IMG/VR virus record: IMGVR_UViG_3300024182_000011
Span: 1-43,376 of that record
DNA: 43,376 nt
Reading direction: 5' to 3' (one strand)
From: a virus
Below the pieces are notes generated by a model. The model worked only from the letters and a program-made list of their open reading frames with translations. It ran no database searches and was not told where the DNA came from. Both the position numbers and the translations under genes were made by a program. Position 1 is the first letter of the stretch, and each line of letters begins with the position of its first letter. Positions 14,260 through 40,231 of the stretch are shown one piece after another.

Positions 14260-16182
14260 TTAGTGGTTATTAAGTTTCCAACCAAAAGAGCTTGTATCTG
14301 TTCCGCTGGAACTCGTAACCACGAATGACGTGCCTCCGGTTATCGTGCTGACCGCAAGTACTCCAGGAGTGCCGCCCGCAGTCGTGGGCGTCAACGTGAT
14401 AACATCGCCCGCTTGGACTTCAGCGGTATTAATAGTCACCGTTCCCCCGGTAAGAGTCGCGGTCCCGGCAGACACGCCAATGCTCAACTTGTTGTTGCTC
14501 TTGGTCATTGCCGTGCCTGTGTCATTCAGTCCTGAGGTCTGATTCTTAGACAGGGTATTACCTACTATCGTGCCGTAAGAGCCGGAATTGTTAATGCCCC
14601 ACTTCTGCCCTGTGGCCCCTGTGTTTACTGAGGTGTTATCGGATATGGTGGTGTAATCAGATACGTTCACTATTCCAGAATAGGTGTTGGCTCCCGATGC
14701 ACTGGAGTTCACCACGTTGTTATTGCCTATGTTGTTCTGGCTTCCGGCGTTTATATTTATGCCGTCTTTTCCAGAGTCATAAACGGAATTACCGGATATG
14801 TTTGAAGTGGTAAGACCGGAGAAGAACATCCCATACTCACTAGATGCCTGTATGGTATTACCAGTAACCATAAGACCGTTTTTACTTGAAACGTCCGAGT
14901 AGATTCCATGCACACAGTCAGAGATGGTGTTCCCGGATAAGGTTGTGTAATCGCAGGAGCCTCTGAGTCTTATGCCCTTAGTCCCCGCTGAAATTACCGT
15001 GTTACCAGATAATGTGTCGTAACCAGATGACGCAAGGCAAATCCCATCTTTGCCTGTCGTGTAAATCACATTACCTGTTACTGTCGAATATCCTGAACCG
15101 TCGCTGTTTATGCAAATAGCGCCTACTGGAAGGCTTGAATCATCTTGAGTTACCGCGGTGTTTACAAGCAGGTTCCCGGTGAGAGTGTTGAATACGCTAC
15201 TGGCAAGATAGATTCCACAGCCGTCTGTAGTGCTAACCAGATTAGATGTGATTCTGTTGTAATTGCTATGTGAGCCGTTATCGTCGTAAATGGCTATCCC
15301 GTAACCGTGGTCTTGATCTTCAGGTAGAACTCCGAATATGGCCGCTCCAAAGCAGGTGTTTTTATCTATCACCCCTTGGGAAAACACGAAGCAGATTATG
15401 TTGTATCGAACGTCTGTGGAGACGCATCTATTATTTATTAGATAATTCCCTACGTTAGTCCCTGTGTAGAAAACGATATCTCCGTACCCGTCGTTTTCTC
15501 CGGTTCCGTTGTCGTGTAGATAGTTGTTCTCAATTAAACAATTAGTGGCACCGTTAAGAAAAATTCCGCCGCTAAGACCGTCAGGGGCAAGAGTGGCACC
15601 GCTAACCTCGCAATTTCTGATCGTCACCTTTGTAACGTCAGTACCAAAAATCCCTCTCGCACACACGCCAGATAAAACAATTCCGTCAAGGGTCAAGTTA
15701 CTTGCGCCGTCAGGTATGGCTAGTCCGAGGTCTGTTACGTTCAACGTAATCATCGACCCCGGTTCCATCGTGATGATTCCGCTTGAAGGTAAGTCAAGTT
15801 GAGAACTGGCTGTGTAATCTCCACGGATTATTAGATTCTTCCCTTCAGCCGCATCAAATGCAGCCTGTAATGTCGGGTAGTCGCTGGAGTACAAAGTCTG
15901 TGTAGTAGTCAGCCCGATATAATCAAGCGTCCAGATCGTTACTCCTGCTGATGTTTTCAGAACGAATTTGTATAGCTTTGTAGAGTCTCTCCAGACAGAG
16001 GCGCGGCCTGACGCATCGCATTCAACGGGATTTTGATTCTGGTTATCTCCGCTTGAATCCGTCCATGTCGGGTAAGGCGTAGAACTGTCAGCGAGAAACG
16101 TATAGAGCAAAGCTCCGGGAGACGCTAAACCATCAGCGCCTATCGCCTGAAAGTTTGGGTTTGGAGTTTCTATGTAGGCCAT
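14260..16182 (-). CDS. tailspike with right-handed beta-helix (640 aa)
   Basis: Trimeric receptor-binding and probably polysaccharide-degrading tail protein. An N-terminal virion-attachment domain (residues ~1-95) is followed by a pectate-lyase/NosD-like parallel beta-helix (~95-530) with many 'NxIxxN'-type coils (TLSGNTVI, TVTGNVIY, NISGNSVYDSG). A C-terminal ~75-residue beta domain resembles caps found on other phage fibres. The catalytic residues cannot be named by eye, as beta-helix hydrolases use scattered acids. It lies between ejection proteins and lysis genes, as the last virion gene. Confidence 0.88.
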   Translation of the reverse strand: MAYIETPNPNFQAIGADGLASPGALLYTFLADSSTPYPTWTDSSGDNQNQNPVECDASGRASVWRDSTKLYKFVLKTSAGVTIWTLDYIGLTTTQTLYSSDYPTLQAAFDAAEGKNLIIRGDYTASSQLDLPSSGIITMEPGSMITLNVTDLGLAIPDGASNLTLDGIVLSGVCARGIFGTDVTKVTIRNCEVSGATLAPDGLSGGIFLNGATNCLIENNYLHDNGTGENDGYGDIVFYTGTNVGNYLINNRCVSTDVRYNIICFVFSQGVIDKNTCFGAAIFGVLPEDQDHGYGIAIYDDNGSHSNYNRITSNLVSTTDGCGIYLASSVFNTLTGNLLVNTAVTQDDSSLPVGAICINSDGSGYSTVTGNVIYTTGKDGICLASSGYDTLSGNTVISAGTKGIRLRGSCDYTTLSGNTISDCVHGIYSDVSSKNGLMVTGNTIQASSEYGMFFSGLTTSNISGNSVYDSGKDGININAGSQNNIGNNNVVNSSASGANTYSGIVNVSDYTTISDNTSVNTGATGQKWGINNSGSYGTIVGNTLSKNQTSGLNDTGTAMTKSNNKLSIGVSAGTATLTGGTVTINTAEVQAGDVITLTPTTAGGTPGVLAVSTITGGTSFVVTSSSGTDTSSFGWKLNNH

Positions 16183-22188: not shown

Positions 22189-24153
22189 TTATGTAATCTC
22201 CATCGCCGCTGTTCCCGCTAATTCAATAGAAACGCCTGCGGCCAACTCGAAATGCTGCGGCACTATCACGCCCGTATTTGTGGCAATCACCGAGCTTTGC
22301 GGGGGGATGAGGCTCTCCGTCAGAACCCCGCCTACAGCGGTATCTCCGACTATCGTTGTGTCGTCACCAAAGCGAATTTTTCCCAAGCCCGTATAGATGG
22401 CACAATTCTCAGACGTTCCCGCCGTCTGATCTTCTATGTAAATGCCATAGTTGTTAGTTATTGATCCTGCGCCAGTATTGGCATTGGCCTGCATATACAT
22501 GCTGTAGGCGGCGGGAACAACGGCAGCGCCGTCGTTGTGGCAATAGGTGTAAAGGCCAAACATATAAGGAGTGCCGGTATCTGCAACATTCCTTGCTTCC
22601 ATGTAAAAACTAGTGGAAGCCAGCGCCCCTGCTTTGGTGCTAGTGTTGACGGCAAGCCCGGTTATATAACTGCCATCACCTTCAATTACTATTGATACTC
22701 CGGGAAGATAGTAGCTAGATGAAATACCCGCCAAAGTGTTACTGCCAGCTACATAAAATCCAGGCGTAAAAGAGCCGGAACCAGGGCCAACGGTAATTGT
22801 TCCCGTTGCCGTCAATGCATCGGTATTGGCGTTATAACTAAGTCCTGAATCAGTCGCAGGAGCAAGCGAACCCGTCTGAGAAGTCGCAAGCATTAACCAT
22901 GTGGTCGTATCCGAGGCTGCATCGGAAACGGTTACTGTGGCGGCATTTCCAGTTAAATCGCCAACAAACCCGCCTGTAGCTGTCAAGGCGTTCGTGTTTG
23001 CGTTATAGGTAAGGCCGGAGTCTGTTAGAGGCGCTTGTGAACCTGTCGCGCTTCCTGAAAGCAAAACTGAGGTCGTTGTATCGCCTGCGGCATCCACCGG
23101 GATAATGTTCGTTGCAGCAGCGGCAAGCGTGGAAGCAGATGCCGTGCCGGTGATATTAGAGACTGTGAGCGTATCGGTATTGGCGTTGTAGGTTATACCA
23201 CCGTCAGTTAATACTCCCTGCGTCCCGGTTTGAGATCCTGCCAGTAGAACCCATGTAGTTGTGTCCGATGCCGCATCGGTTACAGTTATACTCGTCGCAC
23301 TTGTGGAACTACCGGAACTCGTTGCGGTATCTGCGTTGCCATTCAGAGCGCCTACGAATGTTGTAGCCGTCAGCGCGTTTGTGGTTGCGTTGTACGTTAG
23401 TCCTGCATCGGTCAGAGGAGACTGTGTACCAGTGGCTGATCCAGCCAACAGAACGGATGTAGTTGTATCTCCCGCTGCGTCCACTGGAATGATATTTGTT
23501 GCTGCTCCAGCGGTTAAGGACGCAGCAGTACCCGAGATGTTCGTTCCTACTAAAGCTGACGGTGTTCCTGCGTTTCCGTTGTAAGTTATAAACGCGCCAG
23601 CGGAACCAACATTAACCGCAAGAGCCGTAGCTACTCCGGTTCCGAGTCCTGTAATAGAACCAATCGCAGGGGTAATGGTTACGCTTCCAGCGGCAGTGAT
23701 TAGACCCTTGGCATTGACCGTAATAGTCGATGCTTGGGTAGCACTTCCAAATGACCCCACGTTAGAATTCACAGTGGCAAGGGTTGTTGCGTTGCTTGCC
23801 TGTGGAGCCGTTATATCTCCAGTAAGAGCGGCTCTGGTAAGTAACGGTGTCGCATCAACGTAAACCAGCGTTGAGTCGATAATCGCCCCTATCGCGTCCT
23901 GGGCAATCTCTCTCGTGGTCGCGGTGTTTTGAAGTGTCGTTACCCCGGAAGTGGAAAGCGTTATATCTCCAGACACGGTTTGCTGTGTCGGAACACCCGT
24001 AGAACTGCCTATCCAAATTTTTCCCTGAGCAAGAGTAGCTAGAGTATTTCCAATTACTCCAAGGCTTTGAAAAAACGCATACCAGACCTTGCTCGCGCGT
24101 TGCGTGGCTTTCTCAAATAAATCAGACTGCGGCGTGGGTACTTTTATGCTCAT
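22189..24153 (-). CDS. repeat-rich tail fibre protein (654 aa)
   Basis: Elongated Thr/Ala/Gly/Ser-rich protein. Four imperfect repeats of ~45-67 residues (starting near 224, 291, 353 and 409) share the core D-A-A-x-D-T-T-T-x-V-L-L-A-G-S and L-T-Y-N-A-N-T-x-A-L-T-A-T. The first ~60 residues would attach to the tail. The C-terminal ~200 residues lack the repeats and may be the receptor-facing part. Composition and length fit a trimeric beta-structured fibre. The repeats can recombine to lengthen or shorten the fibre. Confidence 0.75.
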   Translation of the reverse strand: MSIKVPTPQSDLFEKATQRASKVWYAFFQSLGVIGNTLATLAQGKIWIGSSTGVPTQQTVSGDITLSTSGVTTLQNTATTREIAQDAIGAIIDSTLVYVDATPLLTRAALTGDITAPQASNATTLATVNSNVGSFGSATQASTITVNAKGLITAAGSVTITPAIGSITGLGTGVATALAVNVGSAGAFITYNGNAGTPSALVGTNISGTAASLTAGAATNIIPVDAAGDTTTSVLLAGSATGTQSPLTDAGLTYNATTNALTATTFVGALNGNADTATSSGSSTSATSITVTDAASDTTTWVLLAGSQTGTQGVLTDGGITYNANTDTLTVSNITGTASASTLAAAATNIIPVDAAGDTTTSVLLSGSATGSQAPLTDSGLTYNANTNALTATGGFVGDLTGNAATVTVSDAASDTTTWLMLATSQTGSLAPATDSGLSYNANTDALTATGTITVGPGSGSFTPGFYVAGSNTLAGISSSYYLPGVSIVIEGDGSYITGLAVNTSTKAGALASTSFYMEARNVADTGTPYMFGLYTYCHNDGAAVVPAAYSMYMQANANTGAGSITNNYGIYIEDQTAGTSENCAIYTGLGKIRFGDDTTIVGDTAVGGVLTESLIPPQSSVIATNTGVIVPQHFELAAGVSIELAGTAAMEIT

Positions 24154-25553
24154 TTTGTTTTAAGTTCCCCGCTTATAATCACGCGCTTAACCGGGTCAGT
24201 TACTTCGCACCAATAAACTCTTGCCGCAGGAGGTCTAACGCTTCCGAGCGGGCCAAATTTCAATTCCTTGTTGTATTCCCCCATCTTCCCCATGCTTAAC
24301 CAAATCTCATTGCTCCACTTATGCCCGTCGTCATCAGACCACTTGAGCATCATTTGCGGGTCATAACCTTGGCCGGAAGCCAAGCCAACGCCGGATTCAG
24401 GTTTAATGATAAGAAACGCATGACGCACAGCTTTATCGCTGGAGCCGCCTTGGATATGCCTACAAACCCTGATAGCCGGTAATGGGTCGCCATCGTCGTC
24501 ATAGAGGTCGGAACGCAACTCCATGATGCTGCCGTTCTGGTAGTCGCCTATCAGGTGTTTCCCGTTGGCATAGACGTAACAATTCGCCCTGTGACGGTTA
24601 TGCGCTCCTGTATCCGGGTCTCTGTGTACCCTGCGATGCCATCCAGACTTACCGGCAGCGGCAGCAGCTACGTCATACACCCATGTTTGATTTCCTGATG
24701 GGAACTGACACCAAATGAACGTATGCCCAATCTCCACCTGTGACCACATAATGCAATCAGCAAAACTTGGCATTTTGGATATTGCATACTCAATCGCGTG
24801 AGTAGATACCCGCACCCCGGTATAGGTATTCAACCGTCTGACAATCCCGTGCTGGTCGAGAAAAAATACAGTGTTGTCTGCGTTACATGAAGCGCCAACA
24901 CCGGCAAGACCGCACTTGATAGCTGATCTAAAAGACAAAGCAAACGATGCATCACCCGAATAAAACCACGCCTCGCTTATCTCTTTGCCGAATAAAATTA
25001 CTTCGTCGTCATCGGCTATGATTCCCGCCAAGTCGTCAGGGTTTGATTCCGCAGATGCAAAGTCAGCGGGACTCCACGATGTTCCAGTGGTCGATATGTA
25101 ATAGGTTTGCGTTCCCCCATCCGGCACCATGAAAGTGCCTTTAAGGACAGCAGCACTTATGGGATGAGATGGAAAGTCTGGGTCTGTTATCAACTCGAAA
25201 GTGCCAGTTGATAAAGTGAATGTGTAACCCTCAACCCCATCAACAATAAGAATCACAAGACCGTTAGTAACGATCTTTGCAAAACCTGTAGCTGTGTTAA
25301 GCGTCCCTAAAGTTGCTATGACGTTACCGGCGGTTTTCGAGTAAAACTTATTCCCAGTAACCCAATAGGAAATTCCCCGATACTCCATTGCAGCCCTTGA
25401 AGTTCCTCCAAGAGTGACTATGGTTGAACTTCCAGGAGTCCCATAAAGCCTCCATCCTTCGGGGTCTTTTTCGAGGTAATAGTTGATAGCCTGCTGACAC
25501 GCAGCATTTACGCTTCTGGCAGCATAGGCATCACCTACGAAATCGAAGGCCAT
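24150..25553 (-). CDS. P22 gp10-like DNA-stabilisation / tail hub protein (467 aa)
   Basis: 467 residues, beta-rich, with segments typical of the podovirus 'packaged DNA stabilisation protein' family: RAMEYRGISYWVTGNKFY near the N terminus, DDEVILFGKEISEAWFYSG, VFFLDQHGIVRRL and QTWVYDVA. In P22, gp10 hexamers close the tail under the gp4 ring. Length matches P22 gp10. It overlaps the fibre gene by four bases and shares a base with the gp4-like gene, as in P22-type tail clusters. Confidence 0.82.
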   Translation of the reverse strand: MAFDFVGDAYAARSVNAACQQAINYYLEKDPEGWRLYGTPGSSTIVTLGGTSRAAMEYRGISYWVTGNKFYSKTAGNVIATLGTLNTATGFAKIVTNGLVILIVDGVEGYTFTLSTGTFELITDPDFPSHPISAAVLKGTFMVPDGGTQTYYISTTGTSWSPADFASAESNPDDLAGIIADDDEVILFGKEISEAWFYSGDASFALSFRSAIKCGLAGVGASCNADNTVFFLDQHGIVRRLNTYTGVRVSTHAIEYAISKMPSFADCIMWSQVEIGHTFIWCQFPSGNQTWVYDVAAAAAGKSGWHRRVHRDPDTGAHNRHRANCYVYANGKHLIGDYQNGSIMELRSDLYDDDGDPLPAIRVCRHIQGGSSDKAVRHAFLIIKPESGVGLASGQGYDPQMMLKWSDDDGHKWSNEIWLSMGKMGEYNKELKFGPLGSVRPPAARVYWCEVTDPVKRVIISGELKTK

Positions 25554-26203
25554 TAGAAGTTTTGAAACCTAGTAACGGCGTTATCGACGCGCTCAACATT
25601 CAGATTACGAATGTTTCGCTCTGCCTGAACCACATCAGGCTTCCAGCGTAAAATTGTCTGCTCTGAAATGCCGAACTCATCGGCCAGGTCATAAGCAATA
25701 ATGTCTTTCAACCAGCGAAGCATTGATACTTCAACATCGGGTTGCGTGTTTTGTGCCGTGTCGTCGGCCACCTTTTCATAGACGAGTTTTATCGTCGTAT
25801 TGGCTATAGGAACCGGCCAGAAAATAAAGCTGCTGCTGCCGTTATGTAATGCTTTTGTAGGGACTCCCCTATCGCCTTTGTTCTCAATGTCCGAGTACTG
25901 ACGTATCCCGATAATCTCAATCGGATCGTCCATAGAACCGGCATGTAAGGTTATCGGGAACAGAACATCAGCCGCCGCACTTCCAGCAGTGGTATTTGCT
26001 GATAACGTGAATGAGAGAGGGGTTTTAGTGACCTTCCTCCAGAACGTCCCTAGCCTGTGCATTTCCTTCAAACGCAGATCAATAGCTTCCAAAACGATAA
26101 CGGAATCATCGTTGTTAGCTGTCTGACCTATGGCGAGCTTGCCCAACTTACGCAACACCATGTCGCGTAACTGCTCCCTCGTTCTGGTAAAAGCAATAGT
26201 CAC
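25553..26203 (-). CDS. P22 gp4-like head-tail adaptor (216 aa)
   Basis: Pattern of the P22 gp4-like tail accessory family: N-terminal TREQLRDMVLRKLGKLAIGQ, then IDLRLKEMHRLGTFWRKV, and VEVSMLRWLKDIIAYDLADEFG. Such adaptors bind below the portal and begin tail assembly. Some gp4 homologues also have peptidoglycan-hydrolase activity; no such residue set is visible here. It is translated from an ATGA overlap with the upstream zinc-finger gene. Confidence 0.8.
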   Translation of the reverse strand: MTIAFTRTREQLRDMVLRKLGKLAIGQTANNDDSVIVLEAIDLRLKEMHRLGTFWRKVTKTPLSFTLSANTTAGSAAADVLFPITLHAGSMDDPIEIIGIRQYSDIENKGDRGVPTKALHNGSSSFIFWPVPIANTTIKLVYEKVADDTAQNTQPDVEVSMLRWLKDIIAYDLADEFGISEQTILRWKPDVVQAERNIRNLNVERVDNAVTRFQNF

Positions 26204-26451
26204 TCACTGCCTCTACAAAAGCGAACATGCATGGTCAGCCCACGCGCGAACACGTTGCCGCATTTCGGGCAGGCATTCTCGTCAGCGATGGGCGCAGCTT
26301 CGCACTCTGGCGGGACGTAACGCAGGAAGTCTTTTTCTTTGGCAATCGCCTCTAACGTGCCTCTGTCTTGGATCGTTACAGGCTTGCCATTGCAGAAAAC
26401 ATAACCTCGGAACTCCCGATATTTGCCTGTGTAAACGTATTGCTCGTTCAT
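26200..26451 (-). CDS. zinc-finger protein in the virion operon (83 aa)
   Basis: 83 residues. The N-terminal part carries VYTGKYREFRGYVFCNGKPVTI, a beta-type segment; the C-terminal part has a CPKC...HVRFC element (C-x2-C-x10-H-x3-C), a C2HC finger. It is coupled by ATGA overlaps to the GT-like gene upstream and the gp4-like gene downstream. Zinc fingers of this size in head genes can assist assembly or bind partner enzymes; the function is unknown. Confidence 0.7.
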   Translation of the reverse strand: MNEQYVYTGKYREFRGYVFCNGKPVTIQDRGTLEAIAKEKDFLRYVPPECEAAPIADENACPKCGNVFARGLTMHVRFCRGSE

Positions 26452-27221
26452 GCCGCAGCCCTTTTTTCGTCAAACATGGTTTCATAAGCGTTCACCATGA
26501 CCTCGTAATCGTCCGGCCCCCATACAAGGGTCTGCCGTTCATTCCTGAATCCGAACTGACTGCCCTCTCCAAAGCCGGTGCTTTCCATAAGCATCACAAG
26601 GTCATAAGTTTTTTCTGTTGCCTTTCGTTTCGGATAGATGTTGAAAATCATGTACGGCGCTTCAGACATTGCGCACATCGACATCGGGCCGTTGTTCACT
26701 CCAAAATTCATCTCTGCCCCGGCGTAAAGTGCAAGCCGGTATTCAAGATCAAGTGGAGAGCGCTCGCATTCCTCTAACTGAACGACGCGCTTACCACGGC
26801 GCTCTAGGTAGCCCCTGAACTTTTCCCACTCGTGAACGTCAGAATTCCTATGCGTGTTTCTGAATGAGTCTCGCATCGTGATCGTCACGTACTGCGCTGG
26901 CTTCAGAGTGAATGTCGGCTTCAACAGTTCTACGTGCTTGTTTTTCTGGTACAGCTTTTCTACGTCGCCCCACGCATACGGGAACTCGAAGCCATCGGAC
27001 TCGTGTACTACAGAAAAATCCATTCCAGCCAGCGCGCACATCGGCACAAGGATGTTGCCGAACCGCTTCCAGGTAACGGTCTTTGGATACTTCCACTCAG
27101 CAACGCCATTACCTATTACAAACTGAACGTGATCGCAGCCAGCGGTTTTTGCCAACACCAGCCACGACGCAAAATCAAACGTGGTAGGCCAGCGTGACAG
27201 ATCGTATTTCGCGTAGATCAT
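26448..27221 (-). CDS. glycosyltransferase-like protein (257 aa, GT-B / GT9-like)
   Basis: 257 residues. The C-terminal part, ALYAGAEMNFGVNNGPMSMCAMSEAPYMIFNIYPKRK in shortened form AEMNFGVNNGPMSM, mirrors the nucleotide-sugar binding region of GT9-like transferases ('AD-VIG-x-TGP-H-AA'). The N-terminal half is an alpha/beta region with VQFVIGNG and WKRFGNILVPMC. It has no transmembrane segments. ATGA overlaps on both sides lock it to the TPR-glycosyltransferase upstream. It may be a partner or degenerate second transferase; donor and acceptor are unknown. Confidence 0.6.
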   Translation of the reverse strand: MIYAKYDLSRWPTTFDFASWLVLAKTAGCDHVQFVIGNGVAEWKYPKTVTWKRFGNILVPMCALAGMDFSVVHESDGFEFPYAWGDVEKLYQKNKHVELLKPTFTLKPAQYVTITMRDSFRNTHRNSDVHEWEKFRGYLERRGKRVVQLEECERSPLDLEYRLALYAGAEMNFGVNNGPMSMCAMSEAPYMIFNIYPKRKATEKTYDLVMLMESTGFGEGSQFGFRNERQTLVWGPDDYEVMVNAYETMFDEKRAAA

Positions 27222-28570
27222 GCTGCCATCGCTTTCTGTCCAACGAGTTCAGAGAGGTCATACCCAATTTTCTGAATAACCGGAATCCACGCATCCGGCG
27301 ATTCGTCGGTCTGCCGATAGAGGCGCACGCTGCGATACCACGGCATCCGACCTGAGTTCTGGTATCTCCACGCGGGGTTTTTAGGCGTCATCACCCAGCA
27401 CGGAACGCCCAGCGCCCCGGCCAGATGAATTACCGATGTGCAGCAGGAAATAACCAGATCGCAGGATTTCACCAGCTTTGCGGTCTCGTAGTAGTCGTTC
27501 GCTTTTATATCTGGAAACTGCTTGATGCTGTAACCCTCGCCTTCCACAATAGCTATCTCGTCCTCGCAGTCGGTGTACTGCAAAGAGACAAACTCGCAGT
27601 CGTTGTTGAGTATTGATTTCCACCACGACAGAGGCACGGTGCGTTTTCTTATACGGCCAGCTTTCATACCGCCTGTCCATGAGATGCCGACGCGGAATTT
27701 TTTGCCGCGCGGTGCGGATTCCGCTTTCAGGTATGGCGTCCCTGGAAAGGACTCAGACGAGCGCCTGTAGAACTGCCCAAGCGAGCCTATGGAAATTTGG
27801 TAGTCAAACTTATCTTCGGCTATCCACAACGGCGCTTCTTCTTCTCGCGTGCCGTAGCATGCAACGCCGAACGATTTAGCGAACAGAGTTTGAAGACGGG
27901 AATGACAGTCGAGAATGACGTTGTTCGTTTTCAAAACATCAGGCACGATCGAGGCGAACATGATTTCATCGCCCAATCCTTGCTCACCGTAAATCGCAAC
28001 TGTTCCAAGCGCTTTCCCGTCCCACTGCGGTTTTCCACCTAACGCCCTGTCAAGCCTCTGCTTGCACGCGAAGCCCCATTCGTATTCATCCCACGCCTTA
28101 TCCCATTTGCCGGTCTCCAACAGCATGAGAGAAAGGTTCCAATGTGCCAGTGGCAGCTTGGGGTCAAGAGCCAAAGCCTTTTTGCAGTAGCGTTCCCCGT
28201 TTGCGGGGTCTCCGGCCTCTACAAAAATGCTTGAATAGGTCGCAAGCGTCTCTGCGGTAGGATTTGTTTTTATTGAGCGGTCAAACCACTTGCGAGCCTT
28301 GTCGTTTTGTCCTGAATACTTATAGGAAAGTGCGAGGTTGCAGTAAATGTCTGACGGTACAGGCCCCTTGCACGTATCAATGGAACGATGCAAAAAAACC
28401 ATCGCAGTACCGGGTTGCCGGTTTTGCAGGCACAAAGTACCTACGGTCGCGAGCAATCCTGAATTGTCATGGTTCTGTGTTAAAAGCTGGTCATAGATGT
28501 CGCGAGCGCCGTCAAAATCTCCTGCGTTGTGCAGTTCCTGCGCGCGTTCCCACAGTTGCAGTTCAGCCAT
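27218..28570 (-). CDS. TPR protein fused to GT9/GT41-like glycosyltransferase (450 aa)
   Basis: Residues ~1-170 form about five TPR repeats (GDFDGARDIYDQLL, GQNDKARKWFDRSI, GDPANGERYCKKAL, GKWDKAWDEYEWGF). Residues ~190-440 match the bacterial TPR-linked GT-B fold: EQGLGDEIMFASIVPDVL, GISWTGG, FVSLQYTDCEDE, then DLVISCCTSVIHLAGALGVP and WVMTPKNPAWRY. In bacteria such TPR-GT proteins are predicted to transfer sugars to proteins, the TPR part choosing the acceptor. Placed directly after the capsid genes, its likely targets are virion proteins. It follows an intrinsic-terminator-like hairpin, so expression may be lower than that of the capsid genes. Confidence 0.8.
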   Translation of the reverse strand: MAELQLWERAQELHNAGDFDGARDIYDQLLTQNHDNSGLLATVGTLCLQNRQPGTAMVFLHRSIDTCKGPVPSDIYCNLALSYKYSGQNDKARKWFDRSIKTNPTAETLATYSSIFVEAGDPANGERYCKKALALDPKLPLAHWNLSLMLLETGKWDKAWDEYEWGFACKQRLDRALGGKPQWDGKALGTVAIYGEQGLGDEIMFASIVPDVLKTNNVILDCHSRLQTLFAKSFGVACYGTREEEAPLWIAEDKFDYQISIGSLGQFYRRSSESFPGTPYLKAESAPRGKKFRVGISWTGGMKAGRIRKRTVPLSWWKSILNNDCEFVSLQYTDCEDEIAIVEGEGYSIKQFPDIKANDYYETAKLVKSCDLVISCCTSVIHLAGALGVPCWVMTPKNPAWRYQNSGRMPWYRSVRLYRQTDESPDAWIPVIQKIGYDLSELVGQKAMAA

Positions 28571-28577
28571 AGAATAA

Positions 28578-28597
28578 GGGGCGGGTTTCCCCGCCCC
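28578..28597 (-). terminator. GC-rich terminator-like hairpin after the capsid block
   Basis: On the minus strand GGGGCGGG-GAAA-CCCGCCCC forms an 8-bp all-GC stem with a stable GAAA loop, followed by TTATTCT. It lies between the stop of the decoration-protein gene and the start of the TPR-glycosyltransferase gene. The short T-run suggests partial termination, which would lower expression of downstream genes relative to capsid genes. Confidence 0.7.
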
Positions 28598-28605
28598 GTC
28601 TCCTG

Positions 28606-29007
28606 TTAGGGGTCCATACTGAAAATTGCAGTCAACACGAAGCCCCCACTCGCGGCACCCGTCGATACCACAGAAACCTTGATATCAATGGTGTCGTCCG
28701 CAGAGTAGGTGTACGGCTGATAAACCGTGTTGATCGGTGCCATTGGCGCATTTGCCGATGCACCGTATCCGGCCAAATATCTTCCCGTACTGATGCCATC
28801 GCCAACCTTGCAGACTGCGGCACCGGAGCCGCTGGCGAGCCACACCTGAACAGGTGTAGCACCAGCAGGCACCTTAATCATCTGGATCACGTCGCCAGCA
28901 GACAGCGCCGCGCCCAGAGAGTAATTGCACTGCACTGCGACCAGACCAACGCGCAAGCCCTTCGGCATAACACCTGTCTGGGCTTTTGATGCGGTAATAG
29001 TAGCCAT
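28606..29007 (-). CDS. capsid-associated / decoration protein candidate (133 aa)
   Basis: 133 residues, beta-rich, with small residues and a pattern (SLGAALSAGDVIQMIKVPAGATPVQVWLA in outline, SGSGAAVCKVGDG) common in proteins encoded directly after N4-gp56-type major capsid proteins. No membrane segment. Position 13 nt after the capsid gene and length suggest a head-decoration or stabilisation protein; biochemical role unproven. Confidence 0.65.
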   Translation of the reverse strand: MATITASKAQTGVMPKGLRVGLVAVQCNYSLGAALSAGDVIQMIKVPAGATPVQVWLASGSGAAVCKVGDGISTGRYLAGYGASANAPMAPINTVYQPYTYSADDTIDIKVSVVSTGAASGGFVLTAIFSMDP

Positions 29008-29020
29008 TGTCAGGCCCTCC

Positions 29021-30115
29021 TTAATCAGCAGCCGCAGCGAAGAAGCCGGTCACAATCCCGTGATCCTTGGGAGTCGTGGTGTCAGCGCCCGCAGCAGTGC
29101 CAAAGCGAAGTTTTTCGATTGCGCGAATCTCCTGAACACCGACGCCGTGCAAGAACTCGTAGTCAGTGTTCTGGGTCGTGCTCTTGGTCCGTTGCGCCCA
29201 TGCCAAACCAATCGCCTGCGCACCGCACAGATAGACTGGCTGAATGTTCACGCCGGACGATGCCAGCGAAGATTCGAGCGATTGGATTTCAGGGATTTCG
29301 CGCAGGATCATTCCATCCCACACCAGCGAGTCGCCGGTAAAGATGGGGTTGTCCGTGTTGCGAGCGCGGGCGTCCCTGTTGGCGAGCGTCAGGACGTTGG
29401 TAGTTGGGTTGTTTTCCGTCAGGTCGCGCCAGCAAAGCGACGGGACGAATACAACGTACCACTCCTGATCCATCTCTTTGACCTGAACCGGCTTGATCTT
29501 CGGAGATGCGGCCTGCGCCATGCGCTTCATCAGCGAAAGCGTGAGAGGTGAACACTTATCTCCAGCGCTTATAGCAAATGTTGCCGTGGCGAACGTCGCG
29601 TTATAGTTCGCGGTCGTATCACCAAATAGCAGGCGATCCTGGTTATTAGCCGTCCATGTATTGCGCTGCGTCGGAGTCGATGACGTGAAGTTCACGCCGT
29701 CAATCTGACCCAGAGCATTTACGATGCCGTCGCGCAGTTTCTTTTGCGCCCATTCGCGCAATTGAACTTTTGCGGCGTCACGCAAATCAATAACGGATTT
29801 TTGCTCGTCCCAATCATCTACCGCTACGCCGTGGCGCAGCACATCGACTGTGACTTTGTGGGAACGCGAGTTAAGGCGTTCCTCGTTACCCATCAGTGTT
29901 GCGTTGCCGGTTACACCGTTACCGACAAGCTCGTTGACGAGTGCGAATGTGACGGAATCGCCGCGTTTTTTGGTCAAATCCTCCTTGAGTTGGATGATCG
30001 CATCTTGTTCGGTGCCCATGTAGCGCTTGAAGCGCGATGCACGGACGTAATCACGAAAGAACTCGTCATCCCACTGCTGGGGGGTTAGACCCGTTGCAGC
30101 CGTGGTAATAGCCAT
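29021..30115 (-). CDS. major capsid protein, N4-gp56 family (364 aa)
   Basis: Forms the icosahedral shell (HK97 fold). The sequence matches the N4-gp56-type capsid family that I recognise: TPQQWDDEFFRDYVRASRF near the start, SVTFALVNEL, LNSRSHKVTVDVLRHGVAVDDWDE, AQKKLRDGIV, and a C-terminal GVQEIRAIEKLRFG. Length of 364 is typical. Scaffold gene directly upstream and portal before it confirm the head-gene order. Confidence 0.9.
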   Translation of the reverse strand: MAITTAATGLTPQQWDDEFFRDYVRASRFKRYMGTEQDAIIQLKEDLTKKRGDSVTFALVNELVGNGVTGNATLMGNEERLNSRSHKVTVDVLRHGVAVDDWDEQKSVIDLRDAAKVQLREWAQKKLRDGIVNALGQIDGVNFTSSTPTQRNTWTANNQDRLLFGDTTANYNATFATATFAISAGDKCSPLTLSLMKRMAQAASPKIKPVQVKEMDQEWYVVFVPSLCWRDLTENNPTTNVLTLANRDARARNTDNPIFTGDSLVWDGMILREIPEIQSLESSLASSGVNIQPVYLCGAQAIGLAWAQRTKSTTQNTDYEFLHGVGVQEIRAIEKLRFGTAAGADTTTPKDHGIVTGFFAAAAD

Positions 30116-30251: not shown

Positions 30252-31058
30252 CTACCTCGCTACGATTGATCCTAGCGGGGTTGGGCCACCCCATACAGGA
30301 CGGCCCTGCGCTCCAGTGGTCCCCGGCACTTCACTCAGGGACGACGGCAGCGAATTGCGCTTCAGTTCTTCAGCCTTCTGCTTTTCAGCAAGTTCGGCCT
30401 CCCACTTGGCGCGTAACTCAATTTCGCGTTTGGCAATAATCTGCTCAACACTACCAGCTTCGCGCAATTCTATACGGCTTTTTGCGGTTTTGTAAGCAAA
30501 ATCTGCCGGATTACGCGAAGCCATGAACTGTTGGGCTAGTCCAGGTATCTCCTGAACGGCCTTCGCGAATTCCTCTATCTTCACGTCGAAATCAGAATAT
30601 TTCTCTCTGGCTGTAGCCTCGGAATTCTGCATACGTTCAGTTAAGAGCATTTGCTGGAATTCCTGCTTCTGCGCTTCAATGAATTGGGTTTGCTGCTTCA
30701 AAGCACCGTCAGGGTCGTCCCAGAACTGCTTAGGCGGCTCTGCCGGTTTTTGGCGTAGTTGAGCAAGCTCCTGCTCCAATGCCTGCCGTTTCCGTGTTTC
30801 CTCCTGCGCGCGAGCGAGAAAAGCCCGTTCCTGCGGCGTCAATTCCTGCTTGGGCGCGACTGGTTGGGGGGTAGTCACACTAGTGGGCGGTGTCTCCCCT
30901 TTTGCTACAAATTTTCCGTCAGCACCGCGCTCAGGGGCCGCTGCGGGCGCTGGTGCCGCAGGCTCTGGCGTCGGCGCGACCACAGGCTCAGGCGATGCAG
31001 GGGCCGCTGCTGCTGGTGCCGGTGTTGCTTTCTCGTTCAATACGTCAGATAGTTCCAT
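30252..31058 (-). CDS. scaffolding protein (268 aa)
   Basis: Assists procapsid assembly and leaves before maturation. The first ~70 residues are Ala/Pro-rich and disordered (PAAAAPASPEPVV...), followed by long charged helices with Gln/Glu (QERAFLARAQEETRKRQALEQEL, QKQEFQQMLLTERMQ), and a C-terminal basic, coat-binding-like part. Composition and its location between portal and capsid genes are standard for podovirus scaffolds, which lack sequence conservation. Confidence 0.82.
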   Translation of the reverse strand: MELSDVLNEKATPAPAAAAPASPEPVVAPTPEPAAPAPAAAPERGADGKFVAKGETPPTSVTTPQPVAPKQELTPQERAFLARAQEETRKRQALEQELAQLRQKPAEPPKQFWDDPDGALKQQTQFIEAQKQEFQQMLLTERMQNSEATAREKYSDFDVKIEEFAKAVQEIPGLAQQFMASRNPADFAYKTAKSRIELREAGSVEQIIAKREIELRAKWEAELAEKQKAEELKRNSLPSSLSEVPGTTGAQGRPVWGGPTPLGSIVAR

Positions 31059-31091: not shown

Positions 31092-33176
31092 TTAGTTTGT
31101 TGCTGGTTCCGGTTTTGCCGCGATCCGCATTTTTTCAAGTTCTATCTGCGCTTCAGCCTTTTCGCGCTCAAGCCTTATCTGCTCTGCCGCGCGGTCTCGT
31201 TCAATAGCCAGTTCTTCCTCAACTTTCTGTCGGGCGAGCAATAATTCCTGCTCCTGAATGAACTTTTTAAGAGTAAATTCAGCTTCCGCGCTCTCGCGGT
31301 CAAGTTTGAGTTTTTCGGCCTTCTCCGCTTTCTCAGTTTGTAATTTAGCCATTGCGTTTTGCTGCTGCGCCTGAACCTTGGCGACACCCTCAGCATCGTC
31401 GGTCTTTAATTTCTGGTTTTCTTCCTGCAACTTTTTCATTTCCTCCCGCATCTGCTGCATTTGCATCTTGACCTTTTCCGGTATCTCACCGTCGCCGCGC
31501 AGATTCTTCAGCACGCGCTCTTTGTGCGGGATTGCGGACGACATCACCATAACTTCGATCAACGCTGGAGGCGCACCGGACTTGATTACTTCTGCCAAGC
31601 CCTGAAACTGCTCAACTTCCATGCTTGGAACGTCTGGAGCGTCGGCAACCTGAATATCGACATCGAGTTCAGCGACGTTGTTATGAGTCATCGGTTGATT
31701 AAGCACAGGATTTTGCTCAATCTGAGCCTTCATCTGCATAAGGGCTTCAGGAGGAGCGCCCTTCTCCTTCGCGGCGAGCAGCATCAGGTCGCCTTTAGTT
31801 ATTTTCTTATTCAACCCTACAAACTTAATATTTTGCTCGTCGTCCGTGACTCTTATCCACATCTCATCCGTCCAGTACTTACGGATACAGTTCCAGACTT
31901 TTTTATAAACCCGCATATCGAAGTGTTTAAGCACTGCGAACAGGGGAGCCAGTTCAGTTTGGCCGGCCATCTGACGGGTTTTTAGGGCGACACCGGACTG
32001 ACTTCCTTCCAGTTTTCCAGAGACGGCGGCATTGAAGCCTACAGCGTCGATTTCCTGCTTGGCTTCGGTCAAAAGACTAAACTGACCAGTAGCCATGTCC
32101 CCTGTTTTGAGAATTTCAAACAGCATTCCAGGGGTCGTTTCTATTACGCCGTCAGGTTTTGCAAGCTCAGATTTAACTTTGTTTACATCATCAACAGCCC
32201 CGCGCTCAAGCTGAACCTGCCTGACACTGAGTAGATGTAAAGCCTTGCTGCGTCTTTTGTTGATTTCGTCCTGAACGTCAAGAAGCTGTTTTCCCGGACC
32301 GTACCTACCTCCATCCCGGTCCACGTTAGCACTTGCGAACTCATACGGCCATTCCGCCTCCCCTTCTTCGTTCACATAAGGCGAGGTCATCGGATCTTTT
32401 AGATACCCTCCTCTCGTGAAACAGCAATACTTAATCGTTCCAGACTCGCGGTAATACAGTTCGATGATCTTTACTCTACGTCTGTCGGCCTGCATCCATC
32501 TCGGCTTATCGTCGTAGGTCTGTCCTGTCTCTCCGAACATTGCTTCAAGGATATTTGCCTTATCCGTGTAGGTCGCTACCGCTATGTCGTAGTCCATCCA
32601 TACGACCTGACCTAACCACCTCGCATCGGAAAAGTCCTTACGCCTGCTATGAGGGTCATAAATAATCCGATCCCAAAAAACATGATTGATGACGATTTTG
32701 TAACTATCGCCTTCTTTCTTCGGCTTTTTTACGATGACCTCACAACCTCCGGTCCCTTCTATAGCAAGATTCTCAAATGCAGCAGAGCGTGTTTCACTGT
32801 AAAAATTATCCTGCAACACGAATCTAATAGCTTCGGTCGCTGCGTCGGCGTCGTGATCTTCTTTCGGGGTTCTCGGAAAACACTTTGCAGTAGTCCTCAT
32901 GGTCTTTTCCATACCGAAAAGACCGTCCATCTTCGGCTTGAAACGGTTTATGACTATCGCGGCCTGTCCGCGCTCTTTCAGTATTTTTGCCTCGGCGTCA
33001 GTCCACTGCTTGCTGTCGTTGTAGTCCCTGCATTTTTCTGAAGTAGCACGAGAGTCAGCCGTCACATCCTCGGCAGAATTGATCCACTTGATTAAAGTAG
33101 CGTGTTCGATGGTTCCATGTGAAACCGTCGAGACTTCAGGTTCGCTCTGAACGTCAGGCTGCTTTTTCTTTGCCAT
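31092..33176 (-). CDS. portal protein, P22 type (694 aa)
   Basis: Dodecameric DNA-entry ring. The family is recognised from WTDAEAKILKERGQAAIVINRFKP near the N terminus, GTGGCEVIV, FWDRIIYDPHSRRKDFSDARWLGQVVWM and KQLLDVQDEINKRRSKALHLLSVRQ. After residue ~560 comes a very long Glu/Lys/Gln coiled coil, as in the C-terminal barrel of P22 gp1. Length 694 is close to P22 gp1. It indicates a P22-like podovirus, which would package by headful. Confidence 0.9.
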   Translation of the reverse strand: MAKKKQPDVQSEPEVSTVSHGTIEHATLIKWINSAEDVTADSRATSEKCRDYNDSKQWTDAEAKILKERGQAAIVINRFKPKMDGLFGMEKTMRTTAKCFPRTPKEDHDADAATEAIRFVLQDNFYSETRSAAFENLAIEGTGGCEVIVKKPKKEGDSYKIVINHVFWDRIIYDPHSRRKDFSDARWLGQVVWMDYDIAVATYTDKANILEAMFGETGQTYDDKPRWMQADRRRVKIIELYYRESGTIKYCCFTRGGYLKDPMTSPYVNEEGEAEWPYEFASANVDRDGGRYGPGKQLLDVQDEINKRRSKALHLLSVRQVQLERGAVDDVNKVKSELAKPDGVIETTPGMLFEILKTGDMATGQFSLLTEAKQEIDAVGFNAAVSGKLEGSQSGVALKTRQMAGQTELAPLFAVLKHFDMRVYKKVWNCIRKYWTDEMWIRVTDDEQNIKFVGLNKKITKGDLMLLAAKEKGAPPEALMQMKAQIEQNPVLNQPMTHNNVAELDVDIQVADAPDVPSMEVEQFQGLAEVIKSGAPPALIEVMVMSSAIPHKERVLKNLRGDGEIPEKVKMQMQQMREEMKKLQEENQKLKTDDAEGVAKVQAQQQNAMAKLQTEKAEKAEKLKLDRESAEAEFTLKKFIQEQELLLARQKVEEELAIERDRAAEQIRLEREKAEAQIELEKMRIAAKPEPATN

Positions 33177-33426
33177 TTATTCTCTCTGCCTGTTCAAGAA
33201 CGAACTGCGCTACAGCCATATCACACCGCCATTGAATGTAAGGCTCAACCTCGCGCTGCATGTGTTCAGGAAGCGGATTCACGCCCACAGCTTTCGGTGT
33301 CGCGCAGATCGTACAAATAATGACGCCGTTATCATCAGTACCCCCACGACGATAGTACAGAAATGCCTTGCATTTCGAGCACTTCGGGTAGCTTTCGTCG
33401 GTGTAGTCAATTACGCAACCCGCCAC
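33154..33426 (-). CDS. zinc-ribbon protein between terminase and portal (90 aa)
   Basis: 90 residues with CSKC and CTIC spaced by 20 residues, a treble-clef or zinc-ribbon arrangement. GTG start near 33426 lies inside the end of the large terminase gene. It is conserved in position in some P22-like gene orders, but no function is recognised. The 23-nt overlap with the portal gene suggests coupling. Confidence 0.65.
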   Translation of the reverse strand: MAGCVIDYTDESYPKCSKCKAFLYYRRGGTDDNGVIICTICATPKAVGVNPLPEHMQREVEPYIQWRCDMAVAQFVLEQAERINGKEKAA

Positions 33427-34862
33427 GATTCACCTTCCGCTTCAATCCTGTCGAATATCCAATCCCGCGCAACAGGTTTCTTCTTCTCTACGTGCCTTAA
33501 CCACGGTCTACTGTTACAGGCGTACATGACTTCATCTGAACAGTGATCTTCCTGATCGGTGTCGATACTCTCAGACTGGATTCCGAACTTATGATCGTCC
33601 ATTACTAGATCAGGCATGGTTCTCCAAAAACCGGCATGACAGTTTCGGGTAGCAAAAAGCATCGGGCCGTCATCATTACCGGCTATTCTTGCTCTTACTT
33701 CTACATACCCGTTGTGTCTGGAACCTGGGCCTTTAGCTGAAGGTCTTAAAACGCATCCATGCTTATTAAACGTCTCGGCTATAGATGGGCCTCCATCTAC
33801 CTTCCACATCGAAGAATCTGCGATACGGTAGGCCATGTGAATACCGCCCTCTTTCGCTAGAATTCCTTTAGCTACCTCCGGTGCCTCCATCCTCAGACCT
33901 TCGTTCGGAGTTCCGTTCCATCCATACCACTCGTCAAAACGGATCATTGCCCCTCTTTGAATCTTCACCCCCCCAACGTCCATCTGGTCACCAGCTATCG
34001 CCCACATACCGTAACTGAAAGGTCTAGCACTTCCCCAATCCAAAGAACCGAACTTCAGCCATTCAGGAGGTATTTCAAACGGCTCAAGACAATGTGTTTC
34101 ACGTCTTAATTTCTCAAAGGCTTGTCCAGCAATAATGTTCCAATCTCCATCCAACATCGCCCTTACAAGAGACTCTGCACCAAGACCTCTAAGCCTGTTC
34201 GCATACTCAGGGTCGTCCTTGGTCAAATGCGGGTTATCAGCTAACTTCGCTGGAATAAATTGCCGTAACATCCCGCCTTCATCTGGCGATGTTTTCCATT
34301 TCTCCATAGGAGGTTTGGGAGAGATAAACGTACGCTTAACCCAAGCATGACCTATGCTTCCAGGATTACTGCCAGCTTCAATTCTTGGAAGTCTGTGCTT
34401 ACAGGCATCAGGAACTTTAAGACCAGCCCTACGAACCCGGCTTCTAAGAAACCGATACTGATACTCGGAAAAGTGGGTAAGCTCATCCATAATCAAAACG
34501 TGAATCTCAGCACCCCGGTACTTTTCAACGTCGTTCTCTGAATCGCAGTAACAAAGATGCAAAATGGAGCCCTGCGGAAACTCAAACTCATTTTCTACGC
34601 TTCGATACTTGACCTGTTTCGACTGAATCCCTTTATCCAGCATCACAAAGAAACTCGTCGGACCTCTTAAATGGTTGTCCCGTAAATCCGTCAACGTCCT
34701 TCTAAACAGATAAACCTGTATCCCCGGAACCTCCAGACACCACCTGATTGCAGATATCCGAAGATAAAAACTCTTACCCCCCCCTGCCGCCCCTCCGTAT
34801 AAAACCTCAGTGGCGTCGGTCAGGTACGCTTCTGTCTGCTTAGGTTCTAAATTAACTTCCAC
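33411..34862 (-). CDS. terL: large terminase subunit (483 aa)
   Basis: DNA-packaging motor: ATPase plus headful nuclease. Walker A-like GGAAGGGKS (residues 23-31), Walker B VLIMDE (122-127), then coupling motif near residue 165 (EAGSNPGS). The nuclease domain shows SLDWG with Asp275 and further acidic residues (IADSSMW, DEVMYA). Length is typical of P22/Sf6-type TerL. Confidence 0.93.
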   Translation of the reverse strand: MEVNLEPKQTEAYLTDATEVLYGGAAGGGKSFYLRISAIRWCLEVPGIQVYLFRRTLTDLRDNHLRGPTSFFVMLDKGIQSKQVKYRSVENEFEFPQGSILHLCYCDSENDVEKYRGAEIHVLIMDELTHFSEYQYRFLRSRVRRAGLKVPDACKHRLPRIEAGSNPGSIGHAWVKRTFISPKPPMEKWKTSPDEGGMLRQFIPAKLADNPHLTKDDPEYANRLRGLGAESLVRAMLDGDWNIIAGQAFEKLRRETHCLEPFEIPPEWLKFGSLDWGSARPFSYGMWAIAGDQMDVGGVKIQRGAMIRFDEWYGWNGTPNEGLRMEAPEVAKGILAKEGGIHMAYRIADSSMWKVDGGPSIAETFNKHGCVLRPSAKGPGSRHNGYVEVRARIAGNDDGPMLFATRNCHAGFWRTMPDLVMDDHKFGIQSESIDTDQEDHCSDEVMYACNSRPWLRHVEKKKPVARDWIFDRIEAEGESWRVA

Positions 34863-36296: not shown

Positions 36297-36539
36297 TTAT
36301 AAACCTATTTTTTCTTCTTGTGGGCTTGAGACGATTACAGTTGTAATGTCTGAGCAGTATTCAGCATGAATGGCCTTGAGCATTTCGCCCTCGATGTGGC
36401 GTGGCTCGCTCCCATCTATCCAGCGTTGCACTTGGATTAGCTGACGGCACATCATTACCGCTAGTTTGTAGGGTGTTATTCCCTTTGAGCCTAGTTCAGC
36501 TATCACCTTGGGCCAGTCTATGCGCTGCGGCTCAGTCAC
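36297..36539 (-). CDS. small HTH-like regulatory protein (80 aa)
   Basis: 80 residues with a helix-turn-helix-like run: WPKVIAELGSKGITPYKLAVMM...QVQRWIDGSEP. It is the last gene before the late packaging block and may be a late regulator or antiterminator; that is inferred from position. Start overlaps the stop of the methyltransferase gene. Confidence 0.6.
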   Translation of the reverse strand: MTEPQRIDWPKVIAELGSKGITPYKLAVMMCRQLIQVQRWIDGSEPRHIEGEMLKAIHAEYCSDITTVIVSSPQEEKIGL

Positions 36540-37273
36540 AATAAACTCACCTGTTCGTAAGATCGGGTTACCTCGTCATAAGCGTCAAATAGCGGCTCCT
36601 GCCTGTATGCGTTTGTGATGCGCTCGCAGGCGATTTCGTAGTATTTCGGCTCAATCTCAATTCCGATAAATGACCGCCCAAGCTGCGCGCACGCTACGCC
36701 TGTTGTGCCGCTGCCCATGAAGGGGTCTAGGATGATTTGCGCGTCACGCTGCGGTTCAATCAATTCCCGCAGTAACTGCAACGGCTTTTGGCTGTTGTGT
36801 CCCACGCTTTCAGGGTGCATCTTCGTCGCCACAGGAAACACCGTGAATACATCGGGAATCACATACGGCTTGCTTGGCGGCTTAGATCCTGTTGGACCAA
36901 TCCACACAATCGGCTCCCAATGCCATTTGAAATTGGCTAAGTTACCGGCGAGCACAAACGGCTTATGCCATATCAGCACTCGCCATATCGTAGCGATGTC
37001 CCGCATGTAGTCGCCCAATTCCCATACCCGCGCGTGGAAAGTAAACATTGCATACGGGGCTACCGATAACCACGATTTCGCCCATTCCGACAATTTCATT
37101 TTTACAAGAGAATCGTCCCATCCGTCGCGCGCCAACCCATACGGCGGATCAGTAATAACCGCGTCCACCTTTGGTAGAACCGGCAATATCTCAAGGCAAT
37201 CCCCAAGCAGCAGCACAGCATTCCCTATGCGCTCTATGCGCTTCCACGGGCCGGTGTCGGGTATGTTACTCAC
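36536..37273 (-). CDS. beta-class DNA amino-methyltransferase (245 aa)
   Basis: S-adenosylmethionine-dependent N6-adenine or N4-cytosine methylase. The catalytic motif IV TDPPYG (residues 41-46) precedes the SAM-binding motif I DPFMGSGTTG (183-192), which is the beta-class order. The target domain between them is ~130 residues. No cognate restriction nuclease is next to it, so it is an orphan methylase, likely protecting phage DNA from host restriction or tuning regulation. The sequence specificity cannot be read. The start ATG overlaps the upstream stop. Confidence 0.9.
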   Translation of the reverse strand: MSNIPDTGPWKRIERIGNAVLLLGDCLEILPVLPKVDAVITDPPYGLARDGWDDSLVKMKLSEWAKSWLSVAPYAMFTFHARVWELGDYMRDIATIWRVLIWHKPFVLAGNLANFKWHWEPIVWIGPTGSKPPSKPYVIPDVFTVFPVATKMHPESVGHNSQKPLQLLRELIEPQRDAQIILDPFMGSGTTGVACAQLGRSFIGIEIEPKYYEIACERITNAYRQEPLFDAYDEVTRSYEQVSLL

Positions 37274-39491: not shown

Positions 39492-40231
39492 TTCAGTCCT
39501 TCGGCTTGCATGATTGCGCGTCCGATGATTTCGGGGATTTGCGGGACGACGGAGTTTCCGAGGGCGGTAAGCTCGTCCATCCATTCGGGAAGCCCATAAG
39601 CCACTCGGTCATTCTCGGTGTCTGCCGGCGCCCAAGTTTCGCAAGGGCTACTCCCAAATACGAACCCATTCTCACCCCACGCCTTGCATGACTTTCTACT
39701 GCTCTCAAAAAACTCTGTTGAGATATATTGTTGCGCTTGCTCCCGTCGCTCGCATTCGGGGTAGGCAATAATCCACGCCCTATCTCTGATATGCTTGGCG
39801 CCAAGGTAGGCAGCTGGTATGCAATGCCACTCCGCGTCATACCCGAACGAGGCCAAGTCTGCGAGAACTCTGCCAATTCCCCTTGTAAGCAAATCTGCTG
39901 AGTTTTCCACGATGACGAAGCGCGGTCGTATTTCGCTAATAACGCGTGCGTATTCACCCCATAATCCGCTTTTGGTGCCATCAATGCCGCGTCTATTGCC
40001 GGCCGGCGAAATGTCCTGACAGGGGAATCCGCCGCAGATAACGTCAACTCCGGAAACATCTGCACCTGTGAACTTTCTGACATCATCAAAGATCGGGACA
40101 TCGGGCCAGTGTTTTCGCAGGACGGCGCGGCAGAATGGCTCAATTTCGCAGAAGGCAACGGTGCGCATTCCAGCTCTTTCGAGCCCGAGGCTAAAGCCGC
40201 CAATGCCTGAGAACAAATCAAGGACATTCAC
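39488..40231 (-). CDS. C5-cytosine DNA methyltransferase (247 aa)
   Basis: Transfers a methyl group to C5 of cytosine. Motif I DLFSGIGGFSLG (residues 5-16), motif IV GGFPCQDIS with catalytic Cys71, motif VI VENS (ENV normally), motif VIII RDRAW (149-153) and motif X GNSVVPQI (225-232). The target-recognition part (~155-215) is short compared with the family (total often >300). GTG start in a GTGA overlap with the upstream gene. Much of the gene is also open in another frame on the same strand (39493-40227), see that entry. Confidence 0.92.
   Translation of the reverse strand: MNVLDLFSGIGGFSLGLERAGMRTVAFCEIEPFCRAVLRKHWPDVPIFDDVRKFTGADVSGVDVICGGFPCQDISPAGNRRGIDGTKSGLWGEYARVISEIRPRFVIVENSADLLTRGIGRVLADLASFGYDAEWHCIPAAYLGAKHIRDRAWIIAYPECERREQAQQYISTEFFESSRKSCKAWGENGFVFGSSPCETWAPADTENDRVAYGLPEWMDELTALGNSVVPQIPEIIGRAIMQAEGLK
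39493..40227 (-). CDS. second open frame inside the cytosine methyltransferase gene (244 codons)
   Basis: The +1-like frame of the methyltransferase gene is open for 244 codons with no stop. The product contains LPTPNASDGSKRNN, SQTWPRSGMTRSGIAYQLPTL, and MTEWLMGFPNGWTSL, phrases that I recognise in stand-alone phage proteins of unknown function found next to cytosine methylases. This makes genuine dual coding possible. No separate ribosome-binding site is evident near its start, so ribosomes might enter from upstream. An artefact of codon bias is the alternative. Confidence 0.4.
   Translation of the reverse strand: MSLICSQALAALASGSKELECAPLPSAKLSHSAAPSCENTGPMSRSLMMSESSQVQMFPELTLSAADSPVRTFRRPAIDAALMAPKADYGVNTHALLAKYDRASSSWKTQQICLQGELAEFSQTWPRSGMTRSGIAYQLPTLAPSISEIGRGLLPTPNASDGSKRNNISQQSFLRAVESHARRGVRMGSYLGVALAKLGRRQTPRMTEWLMGFPNGWTSLPPSETPSSRKSPKSSDAQSCKPKD

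Follow-up and report, generated by a model that had tools for sequence, protein, structure and literature searches.

The 43,376-base IMG/VR virus record IMGVR_UViG_3300024182_000011, from an uncultured phage and analysed here at its full length (the window), contains two contiguous genes directly behind its capsid genes that code for predicted glycosyltransferases (GTs): TPR-GT (27218..28570, 450 amino acids), in which a tetratricopeptide-repeat (TPR) part precedes the GT domain, and GT2 (26448..27221, 257 amino acids). We consider it likely that these phage-encoded enzymes make up a cytoplasmic module that O-glycosylates the phage's own structural proteins, the probable target being the decoration (cement) protein of 133 amino acids encoded just before them (28606..29007). 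The late genes are all located on the minus strand, in the order terminase, portal, scaffold-position protein, major capsid protein (MCP), decoration protein, TPR-GT, GT2, a small gene, adaptor and closure protein. The junctions TPR-GT/GT2, GT2/small gene and small gene/adaptor are ATGA, ATGA and GTGA, respectively. A prediction made earlier from the letters of the window alone (the original prediction) had described three genes with ATGA overlaps at 26200-28570, between the capsid block and a gp4-like adaptor, and these open reading frames and junctions were borne out.

TPR-GT was modelled with AlphaFold (pLDDT 93.9, 28-row alignment) as an N-terminal TPR superhelix (about residues 1-165, with TPR helices spanning 2-167 in the model) followed by a GT-B domain. 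Foldseek comparison of this model with the PDB gave SPINDLY (3.5e-12), OGT (8.6e-10) and bacterial OGT (2.7e-8). As modelled, TPR-GT has the same architecture as the GT41 protein O-glycosyltransferases (OGT, SPINDLY, XcOGT), its best structural matches, in which a TPR superhelix also precedes a GT-B domain; the likeness is claimed for the architecture, not for GT41 membership. It differs from them in being shorter and phage-encoded, and in that its GT domain has no significant sequence match in the PDB. By sequence, TPR-GT matched only TPR-type families in Pfam and NCBIfam, and neither GT41 nor GT9. Thus, the label "GT9/GT41-like" given by the original prediction stood for fold and architecture and failed for Pfam family membership. 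Across 46 viral TPR-GT sequences the motif G194-E195-Q196-G197-x-G199-D200-E201 was invariant, R309, D370, T377 and H381 were invariant or nearly so, and the "GLGDEIMFAS" and "DLVISCCTSVIHLAGALG" blocks, already pointed out in the original prediction, were conserved. Since this conservation holds across deep divergence, chance is excluded. In hhalign, the C-terminal CTSVIHLAGALG region aligned with a protein from a related cassette that Pfam assigns to GT9 (E 2.5e-4, probability 43%).

The second enzyme, GT2, belongs to a family of 23 members and had no match by sequence in Pfam (GT9 included), PHROGs or PDB. Its AlphaFold model (pLDDT 93.1) matched TibC (1.1e-4) and WaaC (3.2e-4) in Foldseek (probability 1.0, TM-score about 0.45). 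These GT9-type heptosyltransferases share the GT-B fold with GT2, and TibC is a protein heptosyltransferase; GT2 differs from them in being shorter and in lying below GT9 recognition by sequence. The GT-B folds expected for both proteins were therefore recovered in confident models with Foldseek matches, although the structural matches of both TPR-GT and GT2 rest on predicted models. Homology between TPR-GT and GT2 was not found (hhalign probability 1.9%). GT2 homologues also occur directly before the terminase large subunit (TerL) gene (L104:3608-4432; L110 and L111:38-226; L numbers designate the compared loci), a second position in the packaging block.

One rival reading is that the enzymes modify a host surface glycan (lipopolysaccharide (LPS) or capsule) during infection or lysogeny, in the manner of gtr genes, thereby excluding other phages. 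The LPS core is often built by GT9-type enzymes, and the phage has an integrase and is probably temperate. However, the cassette belongs to the late morphogenesis block, with about 17 kb between it and the integrase gene, no flippase or membrane GT is found alongside, the two modelled folds are compact and soluble, and TPR-GT is laid out like protein GTs. The gtr-type lysogenic conversion cassettes differ in this respect, having membrane GT or flippase genes near the integrase, an arrangement not seen in the window. A host glycan as the target is consequently improbable.

The position of TPR-GT behind capsid genes recurs. A TPR-GT profile built from four sequences, run against 2.9 million viral contigs, yielded at least 564 confirmed relatives, and the nearest 80 were analysed. 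These loci are metagenomic contigs with mostly unassigned hosts; they were picked by TPR-GT similarity and not by neighbourhood and, being the nearest only, they are mutually related. The MCP gene ended 358-1333 bases upstream of TPR-GT in 68 of the 69 assessable loci, the capsid being of P22-type (PF13252) in 48 and of SU10-type in 20 (identity set by PF17236, 3.3e-94, in L004). When the loci were grouped at 90% identity, an upstream MCP was present in 50 of 51 assessable clusters (37 P22-type and 13 SU10-type) and missing in one; nine others were truncated. P22-type and SU10-type are unrelated capsid families, and TPR-GT occupies the same place in both. The sole assessable TPR-GT without an MCP before it (L024:3524-5017) lies upstream of the portal gene instead. 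Relatives of GT2 occupy a third head-neck context in larger siphophage-like contigs, where the genes for a gp6-like connector (PF05135) and a head completion protein (PF05521) enclose or adjoin them. Large islands of sugar genes were seen at such connector/head completion genes (L089:3364-14000, L095:3980-14328 and L087:7582-10250), their content being GT2 relatives, FkbM, UDP-galactopyranose mutase, cytidylyltransferase and radical SAM genes.

The gene that stays constant in the arrangement is TPR-GT, and the second slot varies between relatives. In the window's own clade, defined by an MCP identity of at least 73%, TPR-GT is followed by the small pre-adaptor gene alone (L106), by GT2 relatives (L102, L109, L116), by a GT8-like enzyme (L105), by methyltransferase-like and GT8-like proteins (L111), or by a cupin, a C-methyltransferase, a Gfo/Idh oxidoreductase and a GT-A protein (L003/L101). 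It precedes GT2, a Pfam GT9 protein and another GT-like protein in the SU10-type locus L004, and FkbM and galT-like genes in MW202512. The original prediction had expected a conserved gene trio. Most relatives lack GT2 or have another gene in its place, and the small gene exists without GTs, so that the trio as a unit was lost and what remained of the claim was the placement of TPR-GT beside capsid genes. Proteins with a "VGHGPS" or "IASGPS" motif adjoin TPR-GT or GT2 in several loci (L070:4734-5147, L072:7939-8583, L081:8122-8652, L089:3960-4661); by eye they resemble sialyltransferase-type GTs, the L072 protein having no Pfam match and the L089 protein a weak MptE-like one.

The variable second slot could also mean that the locus is an insertion hotspot for assorted cargo unconnected with the virion genes around it, as could the isolate Pan3, of the same head type, in which the adaptor gene directly follows the MCP gene with no GT cassette. 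Genes annotated as endonucleases lie nearby in MW202512, and GT2 relatives are also found beside TerL. Nevertheless, TPR-GT itself is constant, the genes identified in the interval, the small pre-adaptor gene aside, are mostly glycan-related, and phages with an unrelated capsid have the same enzyme family in the corresponding position; we regard a hotspot of this kind as very improbable. The companion genes weigh likewise on the idea that phage DNA or a base is what the two proteins glycosylate, or that they lack catalytic activity and serve as scaffolds or assembly chaperones. TPR domains often serve as assembly scaffolds, the GT activity is here a predicted one, and the window holds two DNA methyltransferases. 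Against this, GEQGxGDE is invariant in the 46 sequences, the cassettes of relatives hold sugar-modifying enzymes that a scaffold would not need, and no gene of the hydroxymethylase type stood out in the genes scanned. We therefore give little credence to a DNA or scaffolding role. Because of the GT-B folds, the conserved place behind capsid genes and the glycan-building companion genes, virion proteins appear to be the natural targets of the module, as the original prediction had suggested.

In a search of bacterial genomes, no capsid gene was detected in 77 of the 80 best TPR-GT loci, and the other three were prophages with the same arrangement, in Reyranella (sp. CPCC 100927, L241), a Thiotrichaceae metagenome-assembled genome (MAG) and a Bradyrhizobium MAG. 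Since the enzyme family is common outside phages too, TPR-GT is probably of bacterial origin. A simple motif placed flagellin near the bacterial homologues in just 2 of the 80 loci, an uninformative count. The host of the window phage is probably a proteobacterium, because those prophages sit in Reyranella, Thiotrichaceae and Bradyrhizobium; no isolate is near the window.

The gene at 28606-29007, whose identity the original prediction had missed, was assigned as the decoration gene because its product aligns with a decoration family (L118) that matches the Pam1 cement protein 7eel_H at 1.2e-10. In the MCP tree, TPR-GT carriers fall into two separate lineages, and a single clade was rejected by the approximately unbiased (AU) test (p_AU 1.2e-6), whereas in the decoration tree they form one clade (SH-aLRT 97). 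The nearest MCP relatives without TPR-GT (L103 and L107) both have the other decoration subtype. The covariation comparison covered TPR-GT, the decoration protein and MCP: among 37 carriers, the partial Mantel correlation of TPR-GT with decoration distances given MCP was 0.70 (p = 0.0005), and that of TPR-GT with MCP distances given decoration was 0.34. Since the divergence of TPR-GT tracks the decoration protein beyond MCP, this protein is the leading candidate, not an established acceptor, and it is the one that this comparison favours. Co-transfer of the decoration gene and TPR-GT was considered as a proven event and set aside: the decoration tree favours it and the AU test keeps the alternative, so that it is suggestive only.

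Other possible acceptors are richer in serine and threonine. The fibre-like protein encoded at 22189-24153 (654 amino acids) contains 27% serine plus threonine, with windows of up to 47%, and the tailspike-like protein at 14260-16182 has a C-terminal stretch of 45%. Repeated LTDSGLTYNANTNALTA-like units were also seen in the fibre-like protein. The module might glycosylate these tail proteins and alter receptor binding, and the late operon would merely have received it behind the capsid genes; tail genes of the same late block do follow the adaptor gene. However, TPR-GT is kept directly behind the MCP gene and a small partner gene in two capsid families, and its divergence follows that of the decoration protein, which makes tail proteins unlikely as the main targets.

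Several observations weigh against a module that glycosylates the decoration protein. Virion glycosylation is a prediction here, drawn from genes and modelled folds. The full-chain TM-scores of TPR-GT to its GT41 matches are low (about 0.35-0.44) and some of the OGT match comes from the TPR region, which is why we speak of the same architecture only; the GT-domain profile gave no PDB sequence match up to E = 1. An MCP-like topology was not rejected by the AU test on the small decoration data set (p 0.11 and 0.24), five non-carriers join the decoration tree immediately outside the clade of carriers, and in L210, which lacks TPR-GT, a carrier-type decoration gene is followed at once by the adaptor gene. 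Some of the deepest lineages have a decoration gene that has diverged strongly or escapes the profile, and other possible acceptors, such as the fibre-like protein, are richer in serine and threonine. Finally, adjacent genes are co-inherited, so their covariation need not mean contact.

For glycosylation of the decoration protein, we propose that the TPR superhelix would hold the acceptor protein and that the GT-B domain next to it would transfer a sugar to serine or threonine, with a host nucleotide-sugar as the donor. GT2, or in relatives the other GTs, methyltransferases and deoxysugar enzymes, would extend or modify this first sugar. The terminator-like hairpin between the decoration gene and TPR-GT would allow abundant head proteins and scarcer enzymes to be made in the same late period. 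More tentatively, the compared loci may represent a convergent "head glycosylation island" in environmental tailed phages with three or more head types, composed of an OGT-like TPR enzyme, its own decoration subtype and exchangeable sugar genes, which would give each phage a different capsid glycan coat. The benefits suggested in the original prediction, hidden virions or altered receptor binding, are conjectural.

The hairpin (28578..28597, minus strand; GGGGCGGG-GAAA-CCCGCCCC) has an 8-bp GC stem, a GAAA loop and a weak T tract (TTATTC), and was more stable than shuffled sequences (z -3.44). A hairpin is present at this place in 37 of 38 TPR-GT carriers, many with clear T tracts, and also in most non-carriers; stems of at least 7 after the decoration gene were counted in 33 of 38 loci with TPR-GT and 32 of 45 without it. 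The original prediction had taken it as a special device lowering the dose of the cassette. The hairpin proved real, and its cassette-specific role was rejected since most GT-free loci share the feature. Because most GT-free relatives have a similar hairpin after the decoration gene, it is probably the ordinary terminator-like end of highly expressed head genes, behind which the enzymes would be made in smaller amounts. The 20-nucleotide hairpin also parts an AGGAG Shine-Dalgarno-like sequence (28600..28604, minus strand) from the TPR-GT ATG (window 28570-28604), resembling a hairpin-bridged ribosome binding site; from the sequence, folding would bring AGGAG to about 9 nucleotides from the start codon.

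The small pre-adaptor gene (26200..26451) codes for a protein of 83 amino acids with a zinc-finger-like C-terminal tail (CxxC...HxxxxC), and had been counted as a cassette member in the original prediction. Homologues precede the adaptor gene in phages without any GT, where the tail is AT-hook-like (KRRGRPPK); the N-terminal half is similar throughout, and the tail is a C2HC finger in several carriers. Since GT-free relatives have it too, we read this gene as an old pre-adaptor gene of the head module, outside the cassette.

The remaining late genes complete a P22/Pam1-like head module in the order terminase, P22 portal, Phage_capsid_3 MCP, decoration, adaptor and stabilization protein. They code for the terminase large subunit (33411..34862; phrog_979, 5.3e-41), the P22-type portal protein (31092..33176; PF16510, 4.6e-103), a protein assigned as scaffold by its position in the late block (30252-31058), the P22/Pam1-type MCP (29021..30115; PF13252, 1.7e-53; PDB 9vye_A, 6.8e-76, and 7eel_A, 1.1e-56), the gp4-like head-tail adaptor of 216 amino acids with a GTG start (25553..26203; PF24175 SU10_adaptor, 2.7e-6, above the cut-off) and the gp10-like head closure or stabilization protein (24150..25553; phrog_578, 1.5e-78). 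Elsewhere in the window are the integrase (8442-9482) and DNA methyltransferase (36536-37273 and 39493-40227) genes. The Pam1, Pan3 and GP4-type podovirus head modules resemble that of the window in MCP (7eel_A), decoration family (7eel_H), adaptor and stabilization genes, and Pan3 differs in the cassette-free junction described above. Podovirus ctDrO704 (MW202512, Manatee Spring) shares the MCP, a decoration homologue and TPR-GT (34% identity), followed by the FkbM, galT-like and stabilization genes; its MCP is about 27-28% identical to that of the window, and its genes, though annotated, have as far as found not been read in terms of virion glycosylation.

In mycobacteriophages, it is established that phage-encoded GTs glycosylate capsid and tail tube subunits of these dsDNA phages (Freeman et al. 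2023, as cited in PMC12619734 and PMC11256854), and in Maravista, related to the glycosylated phages Che8 and Rita, the GT genes are located close to the genome 3' end (PMC11256854). In contrast, the cassette described here, known at the gene level, has a fixed place in P22-like and SU10-like phages, behind the genes for MCP and decoration protein, with GT2 relatives in siphophage-like neck modules. In literature coverage thin on subscription journals, no report of TPR-GT genes following capsid genes was found.

Many phages of unrelated head families thus carry predicted sugar-attaching enzymes behind their capsid and decoration genes, for which self-glycosylated particles are the best explanation, as yet unproven. 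What differs from the documented mycobacteriophage glycosylation is an enzyme tied by position and divergence to the decoration gene across deep lineages, with the sugar genes behind TPR-GT swapped between relatives. If this holds true, an enzyme and a candidate acceptor, both named, would form a testable pair, and phage heads in water and soil would commonly bear surface sugars that vary rapidly.

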